From a virus, in the IMG/VR virus record IMGVR_UViG_3300046355_000067, positions 1 to 21,090 of that record: DNA of 21,090 nt. One strand, 5' to 3'. The notes under the pieces were generated by a model that made no database searches, was not told where the DNA came from, and saw only the letters and a list, made by a program, of their open reading frames with translations. This document shows positions 1,401 to 20,179 of this stretch, in pieces (the stretch's first letter is position 1; the number at the start of each line of letters is the position of its first letter). A program made the position numbers and the translations under genes.

Positions 1401-3821
1401 ATGCAATGGACTGCAGATAACACACCGTCTACTATACAAAGTAAATCTTTAAAATTAAGAGAATTATTTGCAAAAGTAGCTAATGCTTCCTTAGATAAAG
1501 GTTTCTCAAAAGAAGAATCTATTTTTGCAGGTACTAATGCTGTAAAAATTGAAGAGCGTAAAAATCAACCCGCTAAAGTTAAGGCTCCTAAATTACCATC
1601 ACACGTAGAAGCACTTAGAAGTTATACGAATCCTTTTGAAGTTGTTTCAAAAGCTGAAGAAATTATAGAAGTTCAAAGTACTGTAAAATCTGCTGAATTT
1701 GATGCAGATGGACATTTGATATTGTCAATGTCAGATGGTAAGAAGATTAAAACTAAAAACAAAGCTGCAGAACAAAATATTGAACAGAATATTGCTATTG
1801 CTCCAAATGTTCAGTTATTTTCATCAAATGATAGTGTAAATATTACTCAAGATGGTCAAGCTTTTGATTTGACTACAGTTGGTTCAAATGTAGATGTAAT
1901 TTCATCTGATGGTACTATAACAGTTTCACAAACTGGTGATGTATTTGATTTAAGTGCATCATCTGGAAGTGTAACTGTAAATTTGACATCCTTGGATGGT
2001 AGTATTGTTATCACAGAAAATACTGGTAGTTATGATTTAGCAGTATCAGCAGCTTCCCCTGCTTCCACTTTAGTTGTTCAAGTAAGAAATCAAACGGGTT
2101 CTACACTAACAAAAGGAACTGTTGTTTACATCAATGGTGCTTCTGGAAATAAACCGCTGGTTAGTAAAGCTCTCGCAACTTCGGATGCAACTTCTGCACA
2201 AACACTTGGTTTGATAACTGCAGATATTAATACAAATCAAAATGGTTACGTAACAATCATTGGTGTGGTTGCAGGTTTAAATACATCAGCATTCGCAGAA
2301 GGTGTTCAGTTATATCTAAGCCCTACTGTTGCAGGTACATATACGGCAACAAAACCACATGCTCCTAGTCATCTCGTATATGTTGGTGTTGTAACTAGAA
2401 GTCATCAAAATCAGGGTACTATTGAAGTTAAAGTTCAAAACGGTTATGAACTCGATGAAATTCATGATGTACAAATTGTTAATCCTACTGATGGTCAGAT
2501 AATTGCATATGATTCTGATACACAACTTTGGAAAAATATTGATGCACCTGCAAATTCTGTAACATCAGTAACAGCAACTGCTCCAATTAATAGTACTGGT
2601 GGATTAACTCCTATAATTTCTATCACTGAAGCTACCACAACTTCTTCTGGTAGTATGAGTGCTGGTGATAAATTAAAGCTTGATGGTATTAGCGTTGGCG
2701 CACAAGTTAACAGTATAACTTCTGTAGCTGGTAAAACTGGTGATGTAACTTTAGATAAATCAGATGTTGGTTTATCTAATGTAGATAATACCGCTGATTC
2801 TGCTAAAAGTGTAGCCAGTGCATCTACTCTAACTACAGCACGTTTAATTAACGGTGTATCTTTTAATGGTTCTGCAGATATTACTATTGCAGATTCAACC
2901 AAGCAACCTCTAGATACTGATTTAACAGTAATTGCAGCCTTAACAGGAACCTCTGGTTTACTTAAGAAAACCGCAACAAATACTTGGACTCTAGACACAA
3001 ATAATTATGTTACCAGTTCAGGAGTAACATCTGTAAATGCTACAGGTACTGTAAGTGGTTTAACATTCAGTGGTACAGTTACATCAACTGGTGACTTAAC
3101 ATTATCGGGTCAACTAGAAGTTTTACCTTCAGATTTTCAAAGTCAAGCTGCTAATTTAGTTTTAGCATCTCCAAATTCTACAACTGGTAAACCTACTTTT
3201 AGAGCTTTGGTGACTTCTGATATTCCAAACTTAGATGCTTCTAAGATTACAAGTGGTACTATTGACGCTGCACGTTTACCTAGTTATATAGACGATGTTC
3301 TAGAGTTTTCTAATTTAGCAAGCTTTCCATCTACAGGTGAAACTGGAAAATTATATGTAGCACTAGATACTAATAAAGTTTATCGTTGGAGTGGTAGTAC
3401 TTATATTTTTATTACAAGTGGAGCCGTTGATAGTGTAGCTGGTAAAACTGGTGTTGTTACATTAAATAGTTCTGATGTAGGATTAAGCAATGTAGAAAAT
3501 AAAAGTTCAGCTACAATTCGTGGTGAACTTACCAGTGGTAACATAACTACAGCGTTGGGTTTTACACCATATAATGCCACAAATCCTAATGGATATATTA
3601 CTAGCAGCGGATCAATTACTGGTAATGCAGCAAGTGCTACTGTATTGCAAACTGCAAGAACAATTAACGGTGTATCTTTCGATGGTTCTGCAAATATTAA
3701 TATTGCTACAAAATTACCAATACTTAACAGACTTAATTCAGTTGTTAATGTAACAATAGCGAATGCTCTACTTGCAGTGACAAATAGAGCAGGTTCAACA
3801 ATTAACGTAGCAGTAGGCTAA
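1401..3821 (+). CDS. Large fibre-like structural protein encoded in the head module
   Basis: An 806-residue, Ser/Thr/Gly/Asn-rich protein with the low-complexity beta texture of phage fibres. Residues 1-55 form a charged helical segment resembling the preceding ChaB-like protein, probably an anchor. Residues about 228-360 carry a beta domain with KGTVVYING, TLGLITADI and VQLYLSPT segments, recurrent in environmental phage structural proteins. Two repeats beginning SVAGKTG and reaching DVGLSN occur near residues 440 and 677, and two INGVSF(N/D)GSA motifs typical of tail-fibre shafts also occur. The start ATG follows AAGGAA at 1391. Its position between portal and protease, away from the tail-fibre genes, suggests a head fibre or a portal-vertex appendage. 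A tail fibre encoded out of place is the alternative. Confidence 0.7.
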   Translation: MQWTADNTPSTIQSKSLKLRELFAKVANASLDKGFSKEESIFAGTNAVKIEERKNQPAKVKAPKLPSHVEALRSYTNPFEVVSKAEEIIEVQSTVKSAEFDADGHLILSMSDGKKIKTKNKAAEQNIEQNIAIAPNVQLFSSNDSVNITQDGQAFDLTTVGSNVDVISSDGTITVSQTGDVFDLSASSGSVTVNLTSLDGSIVITENTGSYDLAVSAASPASTLVVQVRNQTGSTLTKGTVVYINGASGNKPLVSKALATSDATSAQTLGLITADINTNQNGYVTIIGVVAGLNTSAFAEGVQLYLSPTVAGTYTATKPHAPSHLVYVGVVTRSHQNQGTIEVKVQNGYELDEIHDVQIVNPTDGQIIAYDSDTQLWKNIDAPANSVTSVTATAPINSTGGLTPIISITEATTTSSGSMSAGDKLKLDGISVGAQVNSITSVAGKTGDVTLDKSDVGLSNVDNTADSAKSVASASTLTTARLINGVSFNGSADITIADSTKQPLDTDLTVIAALTGTSGLLKKTATNTWTLDTNNYVTSSGVTSVNATGTVSGLTFSGTVTSTGDLTLSGQLEVLPSDFQSQAANLVLASPNSTTGKPTFRALVTSDIPNLDASKITSGTIDAARLPSYIDDVLEFSNLASFPSTGETGKLYVALDTNKVYRWSGSTYIFITSGAVDSVAGKTGVVTLNSSDVGLSNVENKSSATIRGELTSGNITTALGFTPYNATNPNGYITSSGSITGNAASATVLQTARTINGVSFDGSANINIATKLPILNRLNSVVNVTIANALLAVTNRAGSTINVAVG

Positions 3822-3832
3822 AGGAGATTTCA

Positions 3833-4423
3833 ATGCCAGCAATATACCCATTAGTATTAAATGGTACATCAATTCAAGAATTACAAGCGTCTGATACATT
3901 AAATGTAACCTCTGTGCAACTTACAAGTGGTGCAGCAACTCTTAGTTTTCCTACTACAAGTGGTACATTTGCTTTAACAAGTCAAGTACCCACACTAGGT
4001 GCAAACGTAGGTACTTTCTTGGCGACACCTAATAGTACAAACTTAGCTGCAGCGATAACAGACGAGACAGGTTCTGGATCATTAGTATTTAATACAAATC
4101 CAACTTTAATAGGATATAGAGAAACTAGAGTTGCAATTGCTACTAGTGCAATTGATTTATCTGCTGGTAATTTTTTTACAAGAACAATATCTGGTGCAAC
4201 CACTTTTACTGTATCAAATGTTGTTGGTTCCGGTAGTGTTAATAGTTTTGTATTAGAACTAACAAACGCAGGTTCTGCTGCGATTACATGGTTTTCTGGT
4301 GTAAAGTGGACAGGTGGAACAGCACCAGCTTTAACTGCATCTGGTATAGATATCTTGGGATTTTATACACATGATGCAGGTACTACTTGGCGCGGCATGC
4401 TTTTATCTAAGGATAATAAGTAA
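3833..4423 (+). CDS. Fibre-like protein sharing its C-terminal domain with the tail fibre at 19442-20179
   Basis: This 196-residue protein has an N-terminal half with TSGTFALTSQVPT, LGANVGTFLATPNS and ETGSGSLVFNTNPTL, motifs that recur in phage fibre proteins. The last 100 residues match the C-terminus of the fibre at 19442-20179 at about two thirds identity by hand alignment; the shared core includes AITWFSGVKW, LTASG and THDAGTTW. The shared domain is probably a beta-rich fibre tip. A good ribosome site, AAGGAGA, overlaps the stop of the previous gene (3821-3827). It probably forms a complex with, or is attached to, the upstream 806-residue fibre-like protein. The function is inferred from texture and context only. 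Confidence 0.65.
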   Translation: MPAIYPLVLNGTSIQELQASDTLNVTSVQLTSGAATLSFPTTSGTFALTSQVPTLGANVGTFLATPNSTNLAAAITDETGSGSLVFNTNPTLIGYRETRVAIATSAIDLSAGNFFTRTISGATTFTVSNVVGSGSVNSFVLELTNAGSAAITWFSGVKWTGGTAPALTASGIDILGFYTHDAGTTWRGMLLSKDNK

Positions 4424-9881: not shown

Positions 9882-11087
9882 ATGACAATTTCAAAAGGTA
9901 CAGCCAAACAGGTTGCTTACAAAAAGGAAACTACATTTGGTACTCTAGCAGGTAATACTTCTGGTAAACTATTGCGTAGAGTTACAGCTAACTTTAACTT
10001 GGTAAAAGAAGCTTATGAATCAGCCGAAATTCGTGTTGATCGTCAGGTAGCTGATTTCCGTCACGGTGTTCGTTCTGCTGAAGGTACTCTAAATGGTGAA
10101 CTCTCTTCAGCTTCATATGCTGACTTTATGGGTTCTATCGTAGGTAAAGATTTTGCTGCTGTTACACTCGGTTCTGCTGTTCAAACTACAGTTACTGCTG
10201 TTGGTACAACCTACACTCTAGTTCGTTCAACTGGTTCATGGTTAACTGATGGTATTCGTGTTGGTATGGTTATTCGTGCAAGTGGTTTGACTGCTACTGC
10301 TGATAACGGTAAAAACTTACTAGTTGCGTCCTTGACTTCAACAAACGCTGTTGTAGTACCTTTAAATGGCTCTACCATCGCTGCACAAGCTGTCGCAAGT
10401 TCAGTTACACTAACTACTCCCGGTAAACAAACCTTTGTACCTGCAACTGGTCACACTGATGATTCCTACACTGTAGAAGAGTTTTATTCTGACATCGCTC
10501 AGTCTGAAGTCTACACAGGTATGAAAGTTAACAACCTATCTGTTCAGTTACCTGCAACTGGTTTAACAACTGTAGATATCGGTTTTGCTGGTAAAGACTT
10601 AACTCAAGTTGGTACTAGTCAGTATTTCACATCCCCTACTGCTCAGAATTCAAACGGTATCTTTGCTGCTGTAAACGGTGTGATGCTTGTTGATGGTGCT
10701 GCCGTAGCTCTAGTTACTTCTGCAGATTTTGCAATCGAACGTGCTACTGAAAATGCTGCTGTTGTTGGTTCCAACTCTGTTGCTGATATTTTCACTGGTC
10801 GTATCCGTGTAACTGGTAACTTAAGTGTTTACTTCCAAGATGCTGCTTTCCGTGATTACTTCGATGACGAAACTCCTGTTTCAATCGTATTGACAGTAAC
10901 TGCTGATAGTTCTGATGCTGCAAACTTCGTAGCGTTTACTTTACCTAAAGTTAAGCTCGGTAGTTTCACAAAAGATGACGGTGAACTTGGTCTAATCGCT
11001 TCAGCAAGCTTTCAAGCTCTATTGAACGATGTTACTAGTGCAGGTCTAGCTGCTACTACAATTCAAATTCAAGATTCTGCAGCATAA
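9882..11087 (+). CDS. Major tail tube protein
   Basis: A 401-residue beta-rich protein that fits the siphovirus tail tube subunit. It begins with SKGTAKQVAYKKETTFGTLA, a start common in this family, followed by LLRRVTANFNLVKEAYESAEIR and RHGVRSAEGTLNGELS, strands that line tail-tube folds. The middle part, about residues 95-175, is Thr/Ser/Val-rich (TVTAVGTTYTLVRSTG) and looks like an inserted beta domain. The C-terminal half has VNNLSVQLPATGLTTVDIGF and ITGRIRVTGNLSVYF-like strands. Codon use is capsid-like with many CTA leucines, as expected for an abundant protein. A strong terminator follows directly. No sheath gene lies nearby, which argues for a non-contractile tail. Confidence 0.85.
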   Translation: MTISKGTAKQVAYKKETTFGTLAGNTSGKLLRRVTANFNLVKEAYESAEIRVDRQVADFRHGVRSAEGTLNGELSSASYADFMGSIVGKDFAAVTLGSAVQTTVTAVGTTYTLVRSTGSWLTDGIRVGMVIRASGLTATADNGKNLLVASLTSTNAVVVPLNGSTIAAQAVASSVTLTTPGKQTFVPATGHTDDSYTVEEFYSDIAQSEVYTGMKVNNLSVQLPATGLTTVDIGFAGKDLTQVGTSQYFTSPTAQNSNGIFAAVNGVMLVDGAAVALVTSADFAIERATENAAVVGSNSVADIFTGRIRVTGNLSVYFQDAAFRDYFDDETPVSIVLTVTADSSDAANFVAFTLPKVKLGSFTKDDGELGLIASASFQALLNDVTSAGLAATTIQIQDSAA

Positions 11088-11110
11088 TATTGCTAATGTA
11101 ACTTGATAAG

Positions 11111-11139
11111 CCCCGGTTAATAGCCGGGGGTTTTTTTTT
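11111..11139 (+). terminator. Strong intrinsic terminator after the tail tube gene
   Basis: CCCCGG (11111-11116) pairs with CCGGGG (11124-11129) and is followed by nine T residues (11131-11139). It is a textbook rho-independent terminator and closes the capsid-to-tail-tube block. Confidence 0.95.
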
Positions 11140-11150
11140 GCTTACATCAC

Positions 11151-11179
11151 TTGATTTATCATAAAAAATATGCTATAAT
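11151..11179 (+). promoter_or_regulatory. Sigma70 promoter with extended -10, upstream of the tail chaperones
   Basis: TTGATT (11151-11156), 17 bases, then TATAAT (11174-11179), with TG at 11171-11172 as extended -10. It follows the terminator by 12 bases and restarts transcription for the chaperones and tape measure. The hexamers and spacing are identical to those of the promoter at 4462-4490. Confidence 0.9.
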
Positions 11180-11214
11180 CAGTACTTCATTAACAATAAC
11201 AGAAAGGAACTATT

Positions 11215-11628
11215 ATGACTTTTGATCTAGCAAAACATAATTATACAGAGATTGCCGAAGTAGGCTACAAATTTGAATTAAAACTTCCCGGTACTGGTGA
11301 AGCAACTGGAGTATTTATCACAGTACGTGGTGATCAATCTAAAACAGTTAAAGCTTTTGCTCGTAAGAAGTATGCTGAATTCAAACTACGTGAACAACAA
11401 GCTAAACGCAGAGGTAAAGATGTTGAAGACATGACCTTGGAAGAAGCTGAAGAACTAAGCATTGAGTCTGCTGTTGTACGAGTCATTGGTTGGGAGAACA
11501 TTACTGAAAACGGTAAGGTTGTTACTTTCACTAAAGAAAATGCTGAACGAATCTTTAAGGATTATCCTTGGATTAAAGAAGCGGTGATGGAGGAATCAGG
11601 TCAAATCCTGAACTTTCGATCAGAGTGA
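11215..11628 (+). CDS. Tail assembly chaperone, short form (lambda gpG-like)
   Basis: A 137-residue protein in the chaperone position just before the tape measure. It has an N-terminal beta part (EVGYKFELKLPGTGEATGVF, ITVRGDQSKTVKAFARKK), a charged helix (REQQAKRRGKDVEDMTLEEAEEL) and a C-terminal segment GWENITENGKVVTFTKENAE plus IFKDYPWIKEAVMEES that is characteristic of this group. Short chaperones coat the tape measure during tail assembly and are made in excess over the frameshifted long form. The stop lies three codons past the predicted slip site. The ribosome site AAAGGAAC is at 11202-11209. Confidence 0.85.
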   Translation: MTFDLAKHNYTEIAEVGYKFELKLPGTGEATGVFITVRGDQSKTVKAFARKKYAEFKLREQQAKRRGKDVEDMTLEEAEELSIESAVVRVIGWENITENGKVVTFTKENAERIFKDYPWIKEAVMEESGQILNFRSE

Positions 11629-12007
11629 AATTCAAGAAGCTATAACTTTTTCTAAACAAGAGTTTGGCTTCGGTAAGCGTTCTAAAGATGGCTCTACCTT
11701 AAGAGATCAACTCAATTCCGTATGGAGACAAACAGGTATAAAACCTAAAGAGCTTGAAGATATAACAGAGCTACCTGATGGTTGTATTCATGTATGGAAA
11801 TGGTTTATTGATCTACATAATGCACGAAGCTCCAACGGCTTTGGTGTCAACCCAATAGCTTATACAGAAATTAAAGCTTATTTTGATTTAATAGAGTTGC
11901 AGCCTGAAGAATGGGAAATTAACTTGATTAAGTTATTTGACAATGAAGCATTACAAGCTTACGCGAAAGAAGCTGAAGCAGAACGCAAGAAAAGTAATAA
12001 GAAATAA
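11215..12007 (+). CDS. Tail assembly chaperone, long frameshifted form (gpGT-like)
   Basis: After the short chaperone stop, the +1 frame is open from 11612 to the TAA at 12005-12007 and encodes a convincing protein with no usable start near its beginning: FSKQEFGFGKRSKDGSTLRD, WRQTGIKPKEL, CIHVWKWFIDLHNARSSNG and a helical end with LIELQPEEWEINLIKLFDNE. This is a typical T-domain extension. A ribosome slipping +1 at the Phe codon UUU (11614-11616) would re-pair on UUC (11615-11617) and continue with GAU, giving 134 + 129 = 263 residues. The join would be 11215-11616 with 11618-12007. In lambda the equivalent shift is -1, so the direction here is notable. The homologous role is to recruit the tail tube protein to the tape measure. 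Confidence 0.8.
11614..11619 (+). promoter_or_regulatory. Predicted +1 ribosomal frameshift site UUU_CGA
   Basis: The shift must occur between the +1-frame stop TGA at 11609-11611 and the zero-frame stop TGA at 11626-11628. The only site there where a tRNA can re-pair well is UUU CGA: tRNA-Phe moves from UUU to UUC, its better codon. UUU_CGN is the known +1 shift motif of influenza PA-X and of amalgaviruses. Confidence 0.65.
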
Positions 12008-12013
12008 AGTAGT

Positions 12014-12031
12014 AGCCTTCTAACGAGGGCT
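12014..12031 (+). terminator. Small hairpin after the long chaperone frame
   Basis: AGCCTTC (12014-12020) pairs with GAGGGCT (12025-12031) around TAAC, with one G-U pair. Only TTCT-like bases follow, so termination would be weak. It begins seven bases after the chaperone stop. Confidence 0.35.
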
Positions 12032-12069
12032 TCTATGTGTATAGATTAGTGTAGTTTATACACATAGGA
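12031..12069 (+). promoter_or_regulatory. Long hairpin in the leader of the homing endonuclease gene
   Basis: CTATGTGTATA (12033-12043) is perfectly inverted at 12057-12067. In RNA the stem extends outwards by two pairs and inwards by four more with G-U wobble, leaving a five-base loop (12048-12052). It lies 15 bases before the ribosome site of the endonuclease gene (12085-12090). A role in holding down or processing that mRNA is possible; several T4 homing genes are restrained by leader RNA structure. Confidence 0.55.
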
Positions 12070-12096
12070 ATTTACATCCACAACGGGAGAAATGCT

Positions 12097-12882
12097 ATGG
12101 AGAATAAAGATTATTATGTTTATGTACACAGACGAAATGATAATAATACTGTGTTTTATCTCGGAAGTGGAAGATTAAGAAGAAAAGATGCAAAAGGAAG
12201 AACTAAAACCAAAGAATGGTCTGTAATAGACTCTGAAGCAGATGGACACACTGTTGAAGTTTTATACTCGGGTTTGTCTAAAGATGAATCAATCCGTTTA
12301 GAAAAACAACTATTAGGAATTCCAGATGAGTCTTGGAAACTTGTAAATAAAAGACCTGCATTTAATGAACACGAACTGAACATTGATATGCTTAGTTCAC
12401 TGTTTGAATACAGTGAAGACAGTCCAAGTGGTTTAGTGTGGATAGGTTCTAAACATAAAACCAGGAATGGAAAACAAGCAGGTTCTTTGCAAAATTCAAA
12501 CAGTAAGCAATATTGGGTTGTTAGGAAAGATACTAAGTTATACCTTGTTCATCGTGTTGTAATGGCACTACAAGGTTTAAAACTGGATGGTTTAGTTGTA
12601 GATCATATCGATGGTAACGGTCTTAACAATAATCTTGAAAATCTGAGAGTTTTGACACAAGCTCAAAATAGCTTAAACTGCAGATTAAAAACTAATAACA
12701 GTAGCGGACATACTGGCGTTGGCTTGATTAAACAGAACAAGACTGAATATTGGGTTGCTACAGTTACTGTAGGAAATCGTAAATACGTTAGAAAGTTTAA
12801 TACACTAAAGTACCTCAATGCAAAAGAATTGGCAATATCTTGGCATAAACAAAAAATATCAGAATTAATACTAAAGGTTTAA
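12097..12882 (+). CDS. Homing endonuclease with GIY-YIG, HNH and AP2-like domains
   Basis: A 261-residue protein joining two nuclease folds. Residues 7-75 look like a GIY-YIG domain: YVYVHRR (7-13), FYLGSG (20-25), Arg-rich helix, and E70 in IRLEKQLL. Residues about 150-195 are an HNH nuclease of the HNH_3 type: HRVVMALQG, VVDHIDGNGLNNNLENLRVL, with His170 the likely general base and Asn182 in the usual place. Residues about 203-252 resemble the AP2 DNA-binding domain that follows HNH_3 (SGHTGVG, YWVATVTVGNRKY). It fits a selfish gene inserted between the chaperones and the tape measure, cutting phages that lack it. The 5' gap is 89 bases, with hairpins, and the stop is one base from the tape measure start. 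Arg is mostly AGA or AGG, unlike the capsid gene. Confidence 0.85.
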   Translation: MENKDYYVYVHRRNDNNTVFYLGSGRLRRKDAKGRTKTKEWSVIDSEADGHTVEVLYSGLSKDESIRLEKQLLGIPDESWKLVNKRPAFNEHELNIDMLSSLFEYSEDSPSGLVWIGSKHKTRNGKQAGSLQNSNSKQYWVVRKDTKLYLVHRVVMALQGLKLDGLVVDHIDGNGLNNNLENLRVLTQAQNSLNCRLKTNNSSGHTGVGLIKQNKTEYWVATVTVGNRKYVRKFNTLKYLNAKELAISWHKQKISELILKV

Positions 12883-12883
12883 A

Positions 12884-15800
12884 ATGGAATTAGCCGAACT
12901 TAAATTTGTGGTGGACACCAAGCAGTTGGAAGATGCTGCCAAGAAAATAGATGCACTTGCTGTTTCAGTTTCAAAGGTTAATAAACCTGTTACTGATGCA
13001 GCAATGAAGAGTGAAAAACTAGCGCAAGCACAAGCAAAGACTGCTCGTGAAGCTGCTAAACTAGAAGAAGCAAATACCAAAGCTTCTATTGCTGCTGAAA
13101 AACTGGCCAAAGCTCAGAATAGTGCTACTGAATCTAGTAAGACACACATGTCGATTCTTGAGAAGCAAACAAGCATTACAAGTTACATGTCTGATGGTTT
13201 GTCTAAAGGTATGGCTACCATTATGTCTTACGGTAAAGCAGCGGGTCTTGCCGCAGGGGACTTAAAATTATTACTTGACACGTTACAAACTCAAAAGAAA
13301 TTCTCTGGTGATCCATTTGATAACAGTCTAAGTGGAGTTACATCTTTAAAGAATGAATTAAGTATTCTTAGAGAGGTTCAAAGATTGTATGGTGCAGGTG
13401 TTGACTTAACATCAAAACAAGTGCGTGAACTAGCCTCAGATAAAGAACGATTGATTGTAAAGCTTAAACAAGAGGGTTCTTCTTTATCTGCGATAAAAGA
13501 ATCGCTAAGAAATCTCAATAGCGAATACATTGGTCTTGCAACAAGTATAAATAAACTTTCAGACGCAGAGAAGCAAAGAATAAAACAGCAAAATGACGCT
13601 GCAAGAGCTACTGAATATGTTGCATCAGAGACAGAGCGTTTAAATAGACTAACTGAATCTAACGGTAGTGTCACTAGTGCAACAAATAACAAGTTAATTA
13701 AGTTTGAACAAGCTTTAAAAGCAACAGGTATGTCAGCTAATGAACAAGTAATTGCATTAGAAAAATACAAAGCTAGTTTGTTATCTGTACAAAAAGCTGC
13801 AGGTAATCGTCAGATTGATTATCTATCAAGAGCTTTGGGTCCACAGATTACCGACATTGGTGTTGGTTTAGCTACAGGTCAAGCACCTTTAACTATCTTG
13901 TTACAACAAGGTGGTCAATTACGCGATCAATTTGCGTTAGCTGGTGTAGCTGGTTCAGAAATGGGTAAGATGCTTGTTCAAGCCAGTAAAGCAATGGTTA
14001 CAAGTATTAAAGATATTGGTCTTGCCGTTGGTCAACTAGTAACTGGTGCTATAGCTGGTACAGGTAAAGCTATTTTTGATGGAATTATTGCTCCTTTCAA
14101 AAGATTATCTGAAGCTAGAGATGCTTTAAAACAATTTGATGATGGTTTAATTTCTAGTACTCGTTATGCCAGATTAATGGAATTGGCTACTGGTAGAATG
14201 TATCAGTCTTTATTTTCATTGGGTAAGGTCATTGGTGTAACTGCTGCTATTGGTCTTGGTTTACTTGCTAAAGGTCTTTATGATGTAATTAAAGAGCAAG
14301 ATGCCATGACAACACAGCTTGTTTTAACAGGTGCTTCTTTAGGCGTTAATACCACTGCTGCAATATCTTATGCAAATTCTTTAAATTCAGTAGGTGTTAC
14401 AACTGCTTCTGCTTTAAAAGTAATGCAAGCAATGGCAAAAGAAGGTGGTTTTGTTGCTGGTGAAATAAATATGATTGTCACCTCTGCAAATAACTTAAAA
14501 TTAGCAGGTGTCGCAATTGAAGATACTGTAAAGCAGTTTGCTAAACTAAAAGAAAAACCAGTCGAAGCGTTACTTGAAATTGCGAAAGCAACAGGTATGG
14601 TTTCTCCTGAAGTAACTAAATTAGTTTATGAATTAGCAGAACAAGGTAAAACAAGTGAAGCTGCTGCTGTAGCAATGAAGGCATATGCTGATGTAACTGT
14701 CAAGCAGAAAGATAGATTAAAATCAGAACTTAGTGATTTTGCTATATTTGTAAAAAGTCTATCTTCTAGTATTGCTGAATTTTTTGATGAAGTATTCAGA
14801 GGTTTGTTTAGAAAAACATCACCAACAGAAGCTATTAAAAGAGAAATAGCTGATCTTGAGAATACAATCAAATTGGGTACACAAGCTTCACCAGAAACAA
14901 AAGCTAGAAACGATGCTAACTTATCTGCACTTAAAGAGCAGTTGAAGTTATCACAACAAGCACTTGATATTGAACAAACGAGATCATCTGATCAAGCCAG
15001 AAACGCCAAGATGTATCAAAGTTTTATTGCAGATCAAGCTCAGTTCGCTTCCAATGAAATGAAGCGAACAAAAGAGATTGCTGAAGCTGAAAACAAATAT
15101 CAGGGTCTAGTAAAGAATGGTCAGATTTCACAACTTCAATATGAAACACTTATTTCCAATATTAAAGATAAATATAAGGATGCAAAACCTGAAGTTGATA
15201 AAGAAGCAGAAGCATTGAGAAAGAGTGCTGAAAAATATTTAAATAGAATTTCTTCATTAACTAATGCTGCCACTAAAGAACAAGAAAATTATACTAAAGC
15301 GCAAAAATTAGCACTTGATATTTTTTCTGATCCTACATTTGCAAATCAACCGGAATTAATGAAAAGGACAATTGTTGCTGCTATTGAAAGAGCACATGCT
15401 GAAGAACTAGTTGCTGATGAACTTGAACGTCAGAGAAAGATATCTGAGCAAGTTGTCAAAACTCGTAACGAACTAGTTTCAAAAGGTTCTAAGGAAATTG
15501 AACAAGCTAAAGTAACAACTAAAGCATTGGAAGAAGAATCTGCATTATATGACTACAGACTCAGTTTAGTTGGCCTACAAGAAAAAGAAGTAGAAAAAAT
15601 ATTATCCCTTAAAAAGATAGAAATCGAATATGAGAAAGAACTTGCCAGAATTAAATCTCTAGGATTACTATCTGGTCAAGAATCAGATTTAAGACTACAA
15701 GCTTATAGTAATTATCTTCTAAAGAAAGAAGTGCTAGATAAAGCTTCAAATCTCAAAGTCGTCCAAGATTTACAAAAGGAATACGATAGAATCAGTAATG

Positions 15801-18439
15801 GTGTTACAGACAGTATTGTAACCGCTTTATTTGAAGGTGGTAAAGCTGGAAGTAAAAAACTCAGAGACTTGATTATTGCTGAACTTAAAAAGCCAATTAC
15901 AATTGTAGTCAAAGCTCTGATTGATGCTACACTCGGTAGTTTTATTCAAAGTGCAATTGGTAGTGCTGCAGGTAGTTCTGGTGCTTCTTTTGCAGGTTCT
16001 GCTGCAGGTTCTGCAGCTACTGGTGGTATTTCCAATATGGCGATTGGTGGAGCTACATTAGGTGCTCAAGCTGGTGCATTTGGTTCAGGAGTTGCTTCGG
16101 GGTTTAGCTTCGGTGCTCCTGTATCCTCCATGGGTAGTGCAACATCTGCTTCATTTAATGCAGGTGCTACATATGGTGCTCCTGTTCTTGGAGCTGTCGG
16201 TGGTATGGCTATAAATAGAGGTATCAGTAACGGTTATAAAATTAGCAATACTGTCAATACTGTTCAAGATATTGCTACTGCAGTAGCTTCTGCTATCAAT
16301 CCTGTTTTTGGTTTGATTGCTGGTGCTTTCTCCGGTTTAACTAATAGAGCGTTTGGTCGTAAATTAGCTGGTGTAGGTATCGAAGGTACATTGGGTGGTG
16401 AAACTGGTTTTGAAGGCAATCGTTACACTTTTGAAAAAGGTGGATTTTTCCGTAGTAATAAAACTACAAGATCAGTTTTAGAAGAAGCAGATCGTAGTGC
16501 TATTGCCTCTGATTTTAGACTTATTAAAACATCTGTAATGGAACTTGCTGAATCAGCAGGTTTTGGTTCAAGTGCATTGGATAACTTTACACAAAGATTC
16601 GCTATTGATTTGATGAATCTTTCACCAGAAGATGCTGTTAAAAAATACAAAGAAGAGTTTGCCAAGATCGAAGAATCTATGGCTAAAGCTGTTATTGGCA
16701 CTAGTGGTTACAGAAGAGAAAATGAAACCAATATTCAGGCTTTGAGTAGAATCAGTGGTTTTATGAAAGGTGTGAATACTGCATTTGAGAAACTAGGATT
16801 TGAGACTTATAAACTAGAGTTAGCTTCATTAGATGCTGCTCAATCATTTGTTGACATGTTTGGTGGTATCGAAGGTTTCAGTCAAGCTATGAGTTTCTTT
16901 TATGAGAACTTCTTCACTGATGCTGAAAAAACTGCTAATCTAACTAAAGATTTGACAGATGCTTTTGCTGATTTAGGTGTTGAACTTCCGGGTACTCGTG
17001 AAGCTTTCAGAGCTTTGGTTACTACTGCTCAAGAAGCTGGTGATGATCAGCAAGTTAAAAATCTACTTGATTTACAACAAGCATTTGCACAGTTAGTACC
17101 TGTTACTGAAGTACTAGTAGAGACTGTTGAATTAATAAGTAAAACTATGCAAGACCTCTTGAAGGAAAGAGCAAATCTTGAAGTGGAATTATTACAGGTA
17201 CAAGGTAGAACAGATGAAGCTAATGCTGCATTACGTAGAATTGCTACTGAAGGTTTTACTGAAGCTGAAATAGCTGCTTATGATTTTAATCAATCTTTAA
17301 GAAATCAAATTCAAGCTTATAAAGACGCAGACACCGCTGCTAAAGAAGCTGTTAAGTCGCAAAAAGAAGCTGCTGAAAAACTAGTTCAAACTAGAACACA
17401 GGAAACTGATGCTGCTCTTGATAGTGTAAGACGAGCTATTGATGCTGAAAAGGAATTGGTTCAGGTTCGTTTAGATGCTGCTGAAAAAGAAGAACGATCC
17501 ATTAAAGCTGTCTTTGATTTATTATCTTCTACTATCTCAGATATTAGAGGTCAGTCAAATGCAGCAGGTAATCTAAATTCAGCAAGAGCTTTAATATCTA
17601 ATGCTATCAACACTGGTGTATTACCTGATGCTGATAAGTTATCAGATGCCTTGAATATTGTTAGAGGTAGTATTGAATCTACAGCATACGCTACAAAGAC
17701 TGAGCAAATCAAAGCAGGTTTAAAACTTGCTAATGAACTTCAGTCATTACAAGATATTGCTGAACCTCAGTTATCTGCAGCGGAACGAGCCGTTATTTTG
17801 GCACAAGACCAATTGGTGATATTAGATAATCAACTTAAACAAGCTCAATTACAAGTTGATGCATTGAGAGGTGTTGATACTTCAATTGTTAGCTTGAGTA
17901 CAGCGATGGGTAACTTGGCTACTGCTATCTCAGCAGAAGCTGCTGCTAAAGCTGCTGTTACTGCTTCTAATAAGACTTCTACAAGTACAGCATCACAGAG
18001 TTCTACAGGTGGTTATAATCTTGTAACAACTGCAACTGGAGCTACGTTGAACTTCCCCGGTGGTGGTTCTCACTCCGTTGCTGGACCAGACGCTGTTAAG
18101 TTGTTAACAGAAGCTTATGGTCTAGTATCCGGTCCCGGTGGTAGTTTAGTAAGAACTAGAGCCGATGGTGGTTATACACCTCCCGGTATGACTTTGGTTG
18201 GTGAAGATGGTCCAGAATTGGTTAACTTTAGTCGCCCAAGTATGGTTTATACTGCTGCACAAACTAGCTCTTTGATGGGTGGTTCTTCTTCTGAAGAGCT
18301 TGCTGCTATTAGACAAGAGTTAATAATGCTTCGTGCAGAAACTCGTGCAGTTGTTAGCAACACATCTAAGACAGCTAAAATTCTTGACAGGTCTAGTCCA
18401 GATGGACAAAGCTTGCAAGTTACTGTTGTTACACCTTAA
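12884..18439 (+). CDS. Tail length tape measure protein
   Basis: The 1,851-residue ruler fixes tail length and enters or lines the channel during DNA injection. It starts with Ala/Lys/Glu-rich coiled coil (LEDAAKKIDAL, EAAKLEEANTKASIAAEKL). Near residue 320 is the block TDIGVGLATGQAPLTILLQQGGQL, typical of TMP_2 tape measures. Hydrophobic helices follow (for example GVTAAIGLGLLAKGLYDVI near 450-468). After more coiled coil there is a Gly/Ala/Ser-rich stretch near 1020-1150 (SAIGSAAGSSGASF). Near 1760-1785 is DGGYTPPGMTLVGEDGPELV, a C-terminal motif common in these proteins. At about 1.5 angstrom per residue the tail would be near 280 nm. The ribosome site AAAGG (12873-12877) lies within the end of the homing gene. 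Confidence 0.95.
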   Translation: MELAELKFVVDTKQLEDAAKKIDALAVSVSKVNKPVTDAAMKSEKLAQAQAKTAREAAKLEEANTKASIAAEKLAKAQNSATESSKTHMSILEKQTSITSYMSDGLSKGMATIMSYGKAAGLAAGDLKLLLDTLQTQKKFSGDPFDNSLSGVTSLKNELSILREVQRLYGAGVDLTSKQVRELASDKERLIVKLKQEGSSLSAIKESLRNLNSEYIGLATSINKLSDAEKQRIKQQNDAARATEYVASETERLNRLTESNGSVTSATNNKLIKFEQALKATGMSANEQVIALEKYKASLLSVQKAAGNRQIDYLSRALGPQITDIGVGLATGQAPLTILLQQGGQLRDQFALAGVAGSEMGKMLVQASKAMVTSIKDIGLAVGQLVTGAIAGTGKAIFDGIIAPFKRLSEARDALKQFDDGLISSTRYARLMELATGRMYQSLFSLGKVIGVTAAIGLGLLAKGLYDVIKEQDAMTTQLVLTGASLGVNTTAAISYANSLNSVGVTTASALKVMQAMAKEGGFVAGEINMIVTSANNLKLAGVAIEDTVKQFAKLKEKPVEALLEIAKATGMVSPEVTKLVYELAEQGKTSEAAAVAMKAYADVTVKQKDRLKSELSDFAIFVKSLSSSIAEFFDEVFRGLFRKTSPTEAIKREIADLENTIKLGTQASPETKARNDANLSALKEQLKLSQQALDIEQTRSSDQARNAKMYQSFIADQAQFASNEMKRTKEIAEAENKYQGLVKNGQISQLQYETLISNIKDKYKDAKPEVDKEAEALRKSAEKYLNRISSLTNAATKEQENYTKAQKLALDIFSDPTFANQPELMKRTIVAAIERAHAEELVADELERQRKISEQVVKTRNELVSKGSKEIEQAKVTTKALEEESALYDYRLSLVGLQEKEVEKILSLKKIEIEYEKELARIKSLGLLSGQESDLRLQAYSNYLLKKEVLDKASNLKVVQDLQKEYDRISNGVTDSIVTALFEGGKAGSKKLRDLIIAELKKPITIVVKALIDATLGSFIQSAIGSAAGSSGASFAGSAAGSAATGGISNMAIGGATLGAQAGAFGSGVASGFSFGAPVSSMGSATSASFNAGATYGAPVLGAVGGMAINRGISNGYKISNTVNTVQDIATAVASAINPVFGLIAGAFSGLTNRAFGRKLAGVGIEGTLGGETGFEGNRYTFEKGGFFRSNKTTRSVLEEADRSAIASDFRLIKTSVMELAESAGFGSSALDNFTQRFAIDLMNLSPEDAVKKYKEEFAKIEESMAKAVIGTSGYRRENETNIQALSRISGFMKGVNTAFEKLGFETYKLELASLDAAQSFVDMFGGIEGFSQAMSFFYENFFTDAEKTANLTKDLTDAFADLGVELPGTREAFRALVTTAQEAGDDQQVKNLLDLQQAFAQLVPVTEVLVETVELISKTMQDLLKERANLEVELLQVQGRTDEANAALRRIATEGFTEAEIAAYDFNQSLRNQIQAYKDADTAAKEAVKSQKEAAEKLVQTRTQETDAALDSVRRAIDAEKELVQVRLDAAEKEERSIKAVFDLLSSTISDIRGQSNAAGNLNSARALISNAINTGVLPDADKLSDALNIVRGSIESTAYATKTEQIKAGLKLANELQSLQDIAEPQLSAAERAVILAQDQLVILDNQLKQAQLQVDALRGVDTSIVSLSTAMGNLATAISAEAAAKAAVTASNKTSTSTASQSSTGGYNLVTTATGATLNFPGGGSHSVAGPDAVKLLTEAYGLVSGPGGSLVRTRADGGYTPPGMTLVGEDGPELVNFSRPSMVYTAAQTSSLMGGSSSEELAAIRQELIMLRAETRAVVSNTSKTAKILDRSSPDGQSLQVTVVTP

Positions 18440-18559: not shown

Positions 18560-19445
18560 GCCTCTAGTATTTCAAAACTCTCAACTGATTAGTACTACTG
18601 CAGTTAATGCAGATGCTAATTATAATTCAGGTACAACATATGCATTAGGTGCAAAAGTATCTTATCAAGGTATTCGTTATGAATCTTTGCAAAACACTAA
18701 CTTAAATAAAACACCCGATGTTTCACCTACTTGGTGGCTTAACATAGGTGCAACTAATCAGTTTGCAATGTTCGATCAGTTTGTAAGTACTAGTACTACA
18801 GCAACTACAAGTTTAACTGTAGTATATGCTCCGGGTGCAGTATTTAATAGCATCGCACTAATTAACTTAGAAGCTGCTGTTGTTACTATAACAATTAGAG
18901 ATGGTTTAGCTGGTCCTATTGTATATGAAAATTCTGCAGGTCTTTCAGGTGCTAACGTAACAAATTGGTATGATTATTTCTTTCTTGATCCTCTACTAAA
19001 AAGAACACAAGTAGTATTCTCTGGATTACCTGCTTATGTAAATTCGTACATTACAATTGAATTAACAAATAGTACAGGTCAACCAGTAAGCGTAGGTCAA
19101 GTTGTAGCGGGTGATCTTGCTTCTCTTGGTCAGACTCAATATGGTGTATCTGCAGGTATTGTAGATTACAGTGTTAAAGAAACTGATGAATTTGGTAATA
19201 CAACATTTGTTAAAAGAGCATTTAGTAAAAGAATGCAATCTGATTTCTTCTTGGAGAATAATCAATTAAATAGAGTACATGCTTATCTAGCTTCAGTAAG
19301 AGCTACACCTGCTGTATGGATTGGTTCTAGTGATCCTCAGTTTGAAGAAGCATTAATTATCTATGGTTTCTATAGAGAATTTTCATTGCAAATTGCATAC
19401 CCAAATAATAGTTTATATAACATCGAGATAGAAGGATTAACATGA
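18546..19445 (+). CDS. Tail-tip / adsorption protein with carbohydrate-binding module
   Basis: A 299-residue protein downstream of the tape measure. Residues about 22-70 match the small CBM5/12-type chitin-binding fold: YNSGTTYALGAKVSYQGIRY, ESLQNTNLNKTPDVS and the terminal WW, an aromatic-rich surface that binds polysaccharide. The remainder is beta-rich and unrecognised (SLTVVYAPGAVFNSIALINL; VVTITIRDG; SYITIELTNSTGQPVSV), ending with a mixed domain containing RMQSDFFLENNQLNRVHAYL and AVWIGSSDPQFEEALIIYGFYREF. The position suggests a distal tail or tip protein contacting cell-surface glycans. Its stop overlaps the next start (ATGA). The exact tail role is not decidable from sequence alone. 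Confidence 0.65.
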   Translation: MQVLKPLVFQNSQLISTTAVNADANYNSGTTYALGAKVSYQGIRYESLQNTNLNKTPDVSPTWWLNIGATNQFAMFDQFVSTSTTATTSLTVVYAPGAVFNSIALINLEAAVVTITIRDGLAGPIVYENSAGLSGANVTNWYDYFFLDPLLKRTQVVFSGLPAYVNSYITIELTNSTGQPVSVGQVVAGDLASLGQTQYGVSAGIVDYSVKETDEFGNTTFVKRAFSKRMQSDFFLENNQLNRVHAYLASVRATPAVWIGSSDPQFEEALIIYGFYREFSLQIAYPNNSLYNIEIEGLT

Positions 19446-20179
19446 CAACAATTACAACTTTACCAACACCTCCAAGTAGAAGCGATCCTGTTAACTTTGC
19501 AGATAGAGCAGACGAATTTCTTGGTGCTTTACCTACTTTCGGTGATCAAGCAAATGCTGTAGCTAGTGAAGTAAACGGTTACGCGAGCAATGCACAAACT
19601 GCTAAAACACAAGCTGAAGCTGCCGCTGCTGCTGCACTAGCAACTGCTAACACAAGTCTTTGGGTTAGTGGCACAACTTATGCTGTAGGTGTAGTTACAT
19701 ATAGTCCTATTACCTTTTTGAGTTATCGTAGAAAAACATCAGGTGCAGGAACTACCGATCCTTCTGCTGATGCAACAAATTGGCAACTAGTCGCTGGTTC
19801 AGGTGATGTTACTTTAACAGGTACACAAACACTGACTAATAAAACATTAATTTCTGTTATTTCAACTGCTACTAAAGAGACTAAGGTTTCTATGCCAGCT
19901 AATAACTTTGATTTGAATACAGCTAATTATTTTACTAAGACAATCAGTACAACAACTACTTTTACAGTAAGTAACGTACCATCAAGTGGAACAAGTGTTG
20001 CTTTTATTTTAGATGCTACAAATGCAGGTTCTGCTGCAATTACATGGTTTTCTGGTGTAAAATGGGCTGGTGGTACAGTACCTTTGTTAACAGCAAGTGG
20101 TAGAGATATCTTAGGATTCTTTACACATGATGCAGGTACTACTTGGAATGGCTTAGTTTTAGCTAAAGATATTAAATAA
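19442..20179 (+). CDS. Tail fibre protein with carbohydrate-binding-like module
   Basis: A 245-residue fibre. The N-terminus, TTLPTPPSRSDPVNFADRAD then EFLGALPTF and an Ala-rich helix (QTAKTQAEAAAAAALATANT), is the tail-attachment segment common to many phage fibres. Residues about 77-117 hold WVSGTTYAVGVVTYSP plus YRRKTSGAGTTDPSADATNW, a small module also frequent in fibres. TGTQTLTNKTLIS marks the shaft. The final 100 residues are the tip domain shared with the protein at 3833-4423. The gene is translationally coupled to the upstream gene (ATGA) and followed eight bases later by the next adhesin-like gene. The tip domain probably determines receptor contact or trimerisation. Confidence 0.8.
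   Translation: MTTITTLPTPPSRSDPVNFADRADEFLGALPTFGDQANAVASEVNGYASNAQTAKTQAEAAAAAALATANTSLWVSGTTYAVGVVTYSPITFLSYRRKTSGAGTTDPSADATNWQLVAGSGDVTLTGTQTLTNKTLISVISTATKETKVSMPANNFDLNTANYFTKTISTTTTFTVSNVPSSGTSVAFILDATNAGSAAITWFSGVKWAGGTVPLLTASGRDILGFFTHDAGTTWNGLVLAKDIK

Follow-up and report, generated by a model that had tools for sequence, protein, structure and literature searches.

A +1 ribosomal frameshift at UUU_C very probably gives a freshwater phage its long tail assembly chaperone

One of the closest described counterparts of the locus analysed here is the gpG/gpGT chaperone gene of phage lambda. As in lambda, the gene lies between those of the tail tube and the tape measure, is laid out for a short form and a C-terminally extended T form, and has its frame overlap near the end of G; lambda, however, reaches the extension by -1 tandem slippage, whereas the shift predicted here is +1 at UUU_C. 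In lambda, the tail tube protein is bound by the T domain and may in this way be delivered to the tape measure protein with its coat of chaperone; gpG and gpGT are absent from mature lambda virions (PMC5009743).

Sites of the UUU_CGN type have been established or inferred as +1 frameshift sites in influenza A PA-X and in plant amalgaviruses (PMC3498833, PMC5052127). The UUU_CGU shift of PA-X was demonstrated by peptide sequencing, and Firth et al. predicted that UUU_C +1 sites form a general class in which the choice of A- and E-site codons is limited (PMC3498833). The mechanism proposed here matches the PA-X shift, and the locus shares with PA-X and the amalgaviruses the P-site UUU_C slip, a CGN A site with several nucleotides allowed as N, a restricted E site, and the lack of an evident 3' structure. 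It differs in its bacterial ribosome, in belonging to a structural-assembly gene, in a CGN codon that can be replaced by CAG, CTT or TGC, and in an upstream GGAGG; its E-site codon is AAC, compared with UCC in PA-X.

Among tailed viruses, a +1 shift has been judged very likely for the tail chaperone of HSTV-2 (PMC5009743), and a +1 shift at TTT-CGC has been proposed for that of the HF1 group of haloarchaeal myoviruses (PMC7230728). HF2 (locus L238, 6028–6811) reads GAG AAG TTT CGC AGA TAG, and the chaperone ORF that follows lies in the +1 frame. Motif, gene position and direction are all shared with the window, but the host is archaeal and the proposal covered six related genomes without a codon-level comparative test; the HF2 G protein scores at noise level (7 bits) against the profile of the window's family. 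An earlier note on this DNA had called the use of UUU_CGN by a phage tail chaperone a convergence with PA-X and the amalgaviruses. Those precedents hold, but with the HF1-group proposal, tailed viruses already have a precedent for such convergence. Listeria phages PSA, A118 and A500 and phage SPP1 shift +1 at CCC (PMC5009743, PMC6316719), likewise by P-site slips in phage structural genes, but on a proline codon directly followed by a stop and in a tail tube or capsid gene, the SPP1 chaperone being described as -1. No paper describing a UUU_C +1 tail chaperone in phages of bacteria was found in the open-access literature. The new element here would be a UUU_C +1 chaperone in such phages, of which the apparent switch of shift direction is the notable part.

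In the window, by which is meant the whole 21,090-nucleotide stretch of DNA that was analysed, the chaperone pair sits between the tail tube gene upstream and the tape measure gene downstream, past an HNH gene:

9882–11087, + strand: tail tube protein (Phage_tube_2; PF18906, E=3.2e-37), synteny context
11111–11129, + strand: predicted intrinsic terminator between the tail tube gene and the chaperone (sequence scan)
11151–11179, + strand: predicted sigma-70-like promoter, TTGATT-17-TATAAT, TG-extended, ahead of the chaperone (sequence scan)
12097–12882, + strand: HNH homing endonuclease between the T and tape measure genes, outside the shift (PF13392)
12884–18439, + strand: tape measure protein, 1851 aa, synteny context (PF06791 TMP_2, E=7.3e-23; PHROGs)

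The order of these elements suggests a separate transcription unit for the chaperone and the tape measure protein. A similar terminator and promoter arrangement (here 11111–11179) is present in Limnohabitans phage DC31 and several IMG/VR relatives. The interval from T to the tape measure gene is a gap of 75–147 nt in most relatives and holds inserts of 630–1035 nt in seven loci, including the window. Elsewhere in the window, a small GIY-YIG-like homing endonuclease ORF lies in the head gene region (828–1187; PHROG 314, E=2.7e-8; Pfam below cut-off), and two proteins encoded 15 kb apart (3833–4423 and 19442–20179) have a near-identical C-terminal stretch (ITWFSGVKW...DILGF.THDAGTTW). A long fibre-like protein is encoded at 1401–3821, ahead of the presumed major capsid gene; a tail fibre would be unusual there, and the protein is possibly a head fibre.

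Profile searches identified both parts of the pair. The short product, G, scores E=2.6e-18 against PHROG 313 ("tail assembly chaperone"); its match to Pfam PF08748 TAC_4 is weak (17.6 bits, under the cut-off of 21.1) and counts against the assignment. The extension, T, matches Pfam PF23812 TAC_18 (E=2.8e-19, 69.5 bits against a cut-off of 27), and the fused protein P0003, translated with C11617 skipped, spans PHROG 313 end to end, residues 10–258 aligning with positions 19–256 of 258 in the profile. When G and T were folded separately with AlphaFold2, their translations unchanged, both models were confident (pLDDT 91 and 87, respectively). The T model begins a helix immediately past the junction, and Foldseek matched it to a 268-aa protein of Escherichia phage Seurat, the tape measure chaperone (E=2.4e-5, TMq 0.80); no solved structures of G or T were found. 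The sequence evidence marks the extension as genuinely coding, and synteny, the overlapping startless extension, the family relation of G, and the relation of T in sequence and modelled fold all argue for a gpG/gpGT-type pair. The elements at the junction are the following:

11215–11628, + strand: short tail assembly chaperone (gpG-like, TAC-N), 137 aa, product of normal decoding (ORF, PHROG 313, AlphaFold2)
11611–11613, + strand: E-site codon AAC, choice restricted (AAC in 67/75)
11612–11628, + strand: overlap shared by the open 0 and +1 frames (frame scan)
11614–11619, + strand: predicted frameshift site UUU_CGA (TTT in 75/75; E-P-A codon table)
11618–12007, + strand: extension T with the TAC-C domain, read in +1 and adding 129 aa past the shift, stop included in the span (PF23812, +1 homologues, model)
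11626–11628, + strand: zero-frame stop TGA, end of the short form (ORF)

ORF 11215–11628 ends in the codons AAC TTT CGA TCA GAG TGA (11611–11628), and the +1 frame, closed by TGA at 11609–11611, is open from 11612 to 12004 and stops at TAA 12005–12007. The earlier note had described an extension in the +1 frame relative to the short chaperone, startless near its beginning, with the frames overlapping only at 11612–11628 and the site at TTT CGA 11614–11619; the coordinates and frame relation proved exact, and codon reading bore out the overlap and site. Position 11609, with which that note began its feature, is the first base of the TGA closing the +1 frame. No ATG, GTG or TTG occurs in the T frame of the window upstream of 11897, and the earliest, a TTG at that position, lies deep within the conserved domain. 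The in-frame sequence TTT_CG occurs only once among the 5970 codons of 17 window genes, namely at 11614, which, like the retention of TTT_Y in 75/75 homologous +1 loci, exceeds chance expectation.

The ORF and the +1 frame to 12007 together are thus read as one recoded chaperone gene of the lambda gpG/gpGT type with a +1 slip on UUU, a reading that we consider highly probable from the sequence. The majority of ribosomes would terminate at TGA 11626 and yield the 137-aa short form. In a minority, tRNA-Phe would occupy UUU (11614–11616) while the A-site CGA is slow to fill, and a +1 slip would follow, in which the anticodon GAA shifts from UUU to UUC, decoding passes over C11617, and GAT becomes the next codon. 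The product would be 263 aa in length, with an ...ILNF-DQSE... junction and the junction peptide EAVMEESGQILNFDQSEIQEAITFSK. If the role known from lambda is assumed, its T domain would bring tail tube subunits to the tape measure protein coated with chaperone. A review points out that slippage on UUU may be restricted by the bulky modification at A37 of tRNA-Phe (PMC5009743), which counts against the proposed slip. Transcriptional slippage, a general alternative to ribosomal frameshifting, could also join the frames through mixed mRNAs, but the longest homopolymer in the overlap is three T, and slippage usually requires far longer runs, which makes this route extremely improbable.

Homologous loci were collected from IMG/VR and phage records, and 75 sequence-distinct loci in which G and T were detectable and T lay in +1 make up the +1 set. 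Most are metagenomic contigs, many of them close relatives of one another, and the set includes the isolates Limnohabitans phage DC31 and Curvibacter phage P26059A; no homologue was confirmed in GTDB genomes (prophages). The homologue alignment that the earlier note had advised showed the two-frame layout and TTT_Y in 75/75, with T in the +1 frame throughout, fusion in 0/75, and no start codon for T conserved among these relatives. Several relatives have a frame overlap as small as 8–14 nt, always with an in-frame TTT_Y. As a contig from an uncultivated virus, the window could owe its split gene to a sequencing or assembly error; that explanation is refuted by the recurrence of the split, never fused, in 75 sequence-distinct loci and two cultured phages, and its remaining probability is negligible. 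A separate T gene, unfused to G and entered by re-initiation or from a non-canonical start of its own, would fit the truncated ORF annotated within T in P26059A, as well as the ATT at 11630 just past the stop and the GGAGG upstream. Against this, the usual start codons are missing before 11897 and none is conserved in relatives, where ATT 11630 is replaced by ACT, GTT and others; the GGAGG is ~35 nt away from this ATT; and an independent start would not account for the absence of synonymous change at UUU. A separate gene is therefore very unlikely.

The codons at the site further define what is conserved. The base after TTT is C in 73/75 loci and T in 2/75. Counts of the E-, P- and A-site codons are AAC TTT CGA 38, AAC TTT CGC 13, AAC TTT CAG 8, AAT TTT CGA 5, AAC TTT CGT 5, AAC TTT TGC 2, TCA TTT CGC 2, AAT TTT CGC 1 and AAC TTT CTT 1. 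The earlier note had asked whether homologues keep UUU_CGN, and they do so in part: UUU_C or UUU_U is found in 75/75, but the A-site codon is CGN in only 64/75 and otherwise CAG (8), TGC (2) or CTT (1). Because the next codon is CAG, CTT or TGC in 11/75, the invariant is UUU_C (more broadly UUU_Y), not UUU_CGN. In either case, tRNA-Phe would re-pair well, from UUU to UUC or from UUU to UUU.

Two other positions or modes of shifting were weighed against a +1 slip on UUU. An RF2-like shift at the stop codon (GAG_UGA or CAG_UGA) would suit the majority of loci, in which the stop follows within a few codons, including eight in which UUU is followed by CAG TGA. The zero-frame stop, however, lies at differing distances from UUU among relatives and after differing codons, while UUU_Y is invariant, and re-pairing from GAG or CAG to AGU is poor. 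Because the stop position relative to UUU varies, TGA 11626 is not taken as the shift codon, and a shift there is most improbable. A -2 shift at or near the same codons would end in a frame identical to that of a +1 shift, and the gpGT tail chaperone of phage Mu provides a -2 precedent (cited in PMC3498833). Such a move would nevertheless put tRNA-Phe on ACU and Arg-tRNA on UUC, with pairing in neither, and inspection of the window sequence revealed no -2 re-pairing. Overlaps of 8–14 nt with a conserved AAC_UUU_Y offer no better -2 site, and a -2 slip leaves the absence of UUC at the UUU position unexplained. It is because of tRNA re-pairing that +1 is preferred to -2, which we regard as improbable; we infer that the ribosome makes the shift and that it does so in the +1 direction.

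Selection on individual codons was assessed from changes on a DNA tree of the 75 +1 loci, from which the columns of the site were left out; changes on the tree were counted because the sequences are related. The Phe codon of the site is TTT in 75/75, with 0 inferred synonymous changes, compared with 10–14 at each of five other conserved Phe columns. The preceding Asn is AAC in 67/75, with 5 changes, whereas the window genes use 68% AAT and 32% AAC; with AAU ahead of UUU, the Phe tRNA could re-pair in the -1 direction, which is a plausible reason for the preference for AAC. CGA accounts for 7% of Arg codons in the window genes versus 43/64 of the CGN A-site codons at the site. The use of CGC and CGT at the A site of other loci, both of them rather common codons, counts against the proposed mechanism. 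The features of the UUU_CGN class, namely a conserved UUU_C P site in the overlap, a CGN A site (CGA here), and a restricted E site, are all found at this locus.

A further element of the site lies upstream of the overlap:

11589–11593, + strand: Shine-Dalgarno-like GGAGG, ending 20 nt ahead of UUU, candidate 5' stimulator (position and density counts)

GGAGG stands exactly 20 nt upstream of UUU in 56/75 +1 loci and in 12/39 related loci with T in the -1 frame. Its density in G is 11.3 per kb in the last 60 nt versus 0.10 per kb in the remaining gene body. Because Glu-Glu pairs elsewhere in G are mostly GAA GAA (114/143), the conservation of GGAGG involves codon choice and not the amino acids alone. 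In prfB (RF2), as proposed here, the P-site tRNA re-pairs one base forward downstream of an SD-like sequence, but there the SD precedes the slip codon by about 3 nt and the A site is a stop, compared with 20 nt and the sense codon CGA at this site. The corresponding SD spacing is about 10 nt in dnaX, and we know of no frameshift stimulator with a distance matching 20 nt. A prfB-type role for GGAGG was ruled out by this spacing. The parts that AAC, CGN and GGAGG would play in the shift are suggested by these patterns of conservation. No conserved downstream RNA helix was found by RNAalifold in 20 relatives (-0.6 kcal/mol), a negative result that weighs against the proposed shift; the window's own downstream hairpin (z -1.9, single sequence) is not conserved in relatives. 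Rfam searches of 11000–12200 gave nothing close to gathering scores, and no tRNA genes were found in the window.

The -1 set comprises 39 sequence-distinct loci that share the T domain, have a recognisable G and carry T in the -1 frame; Pseudanabaena phage Pan1 is an additional -1 locus beyond the 39. These relatives include Pasteurella phage Pmp13, Mannheimia phage 1152AP2, the IMG/VR loci L212 and L225, marine loci, Queuovirinae, Bradleyvirinae and Pamexvirus. All have a homologous T domain and the nearer ones also a homologous G, and their shift site lies at or beside the same Asn/Asp-Phe codons, but with T in -1 instead of +1. A canonical X_XXY_YYZ heptamer is present in the overlap of 26/39, with G_GGA_AAC, G_GGA_AAG, A_AAT_TTT, T_TTT_TTY and G_GGT_TTT among those found, and many of the remaining -1 loci have G_GAT_TTT. 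In the +1 set, 73/75 have no canonical heptamer and A_AAT_TTT occurs in 1/75; the window, with T in +1 as in all 75, does not conform to the X_XXY_YYZ -1 type. In L212 and L225, whose G is ~60% identical to that of the window, A_AAT_TTT falls on exactly the Asn-Phe codons that read AAC_TTT_C in the +1 group. UUU would therefore be the A-site codon in many -1 lineages (A_AAT_TTT, G_GAT_TTT) and the P-site codon in the +1 lineage (AAC_UUU_C).

Because the closest outgroups use -1, the site appears to represent a direction switch inside one homologous gene pair. One change of direction is required on the G-only, T-only and pruned joint trees, and two on the full concatenated tree, with weak support (23–90); depending on the tree, L212 and L225 would be either a reversal to -1 or the nearest outgroup. 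From the sequences, the shift direction seems to have changed at least once within the family, and the outgroups point to -1 as the ancestral state, so that the +1 site would have arisen in a chaperone family whose farther members slip -1 at or beside the same codons. More tentatively, and with the balance tipping against it, the direction may have turned from -1 to +1 with both the pivot UUU codon and the GGAGG exactly 20 nt upstream retained, the latter acting as a long-range 5' stimulator for both directions.

In the GenBank records of DC31 (L002, 3742–4220) and P26059A (L003, 3356–3583), the T extension is absent or truncated, and the T protein of these cultured relatives is due for re-annotation. 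The DC31 record is filed under Pakpunavirus, a genus of Pseudomonas myoviruses, a mismatch with the DC31 host and its siphovirus-like tail genes.

Frameshifting in tail chaperones is conserved and mostly -1, and the 75 +1 loci set beside 39 related -1 loci constitute a large natural series. This series shows which A- and E-site codons are tolerated in nature, and it lends comparative support to the UUU_C +1 class predicted from PA-X, which it would extend to phages of bacteria. Since the direction differs between homologues at near-identical codons, the evolution of recoding direction should be testable with small reporters.
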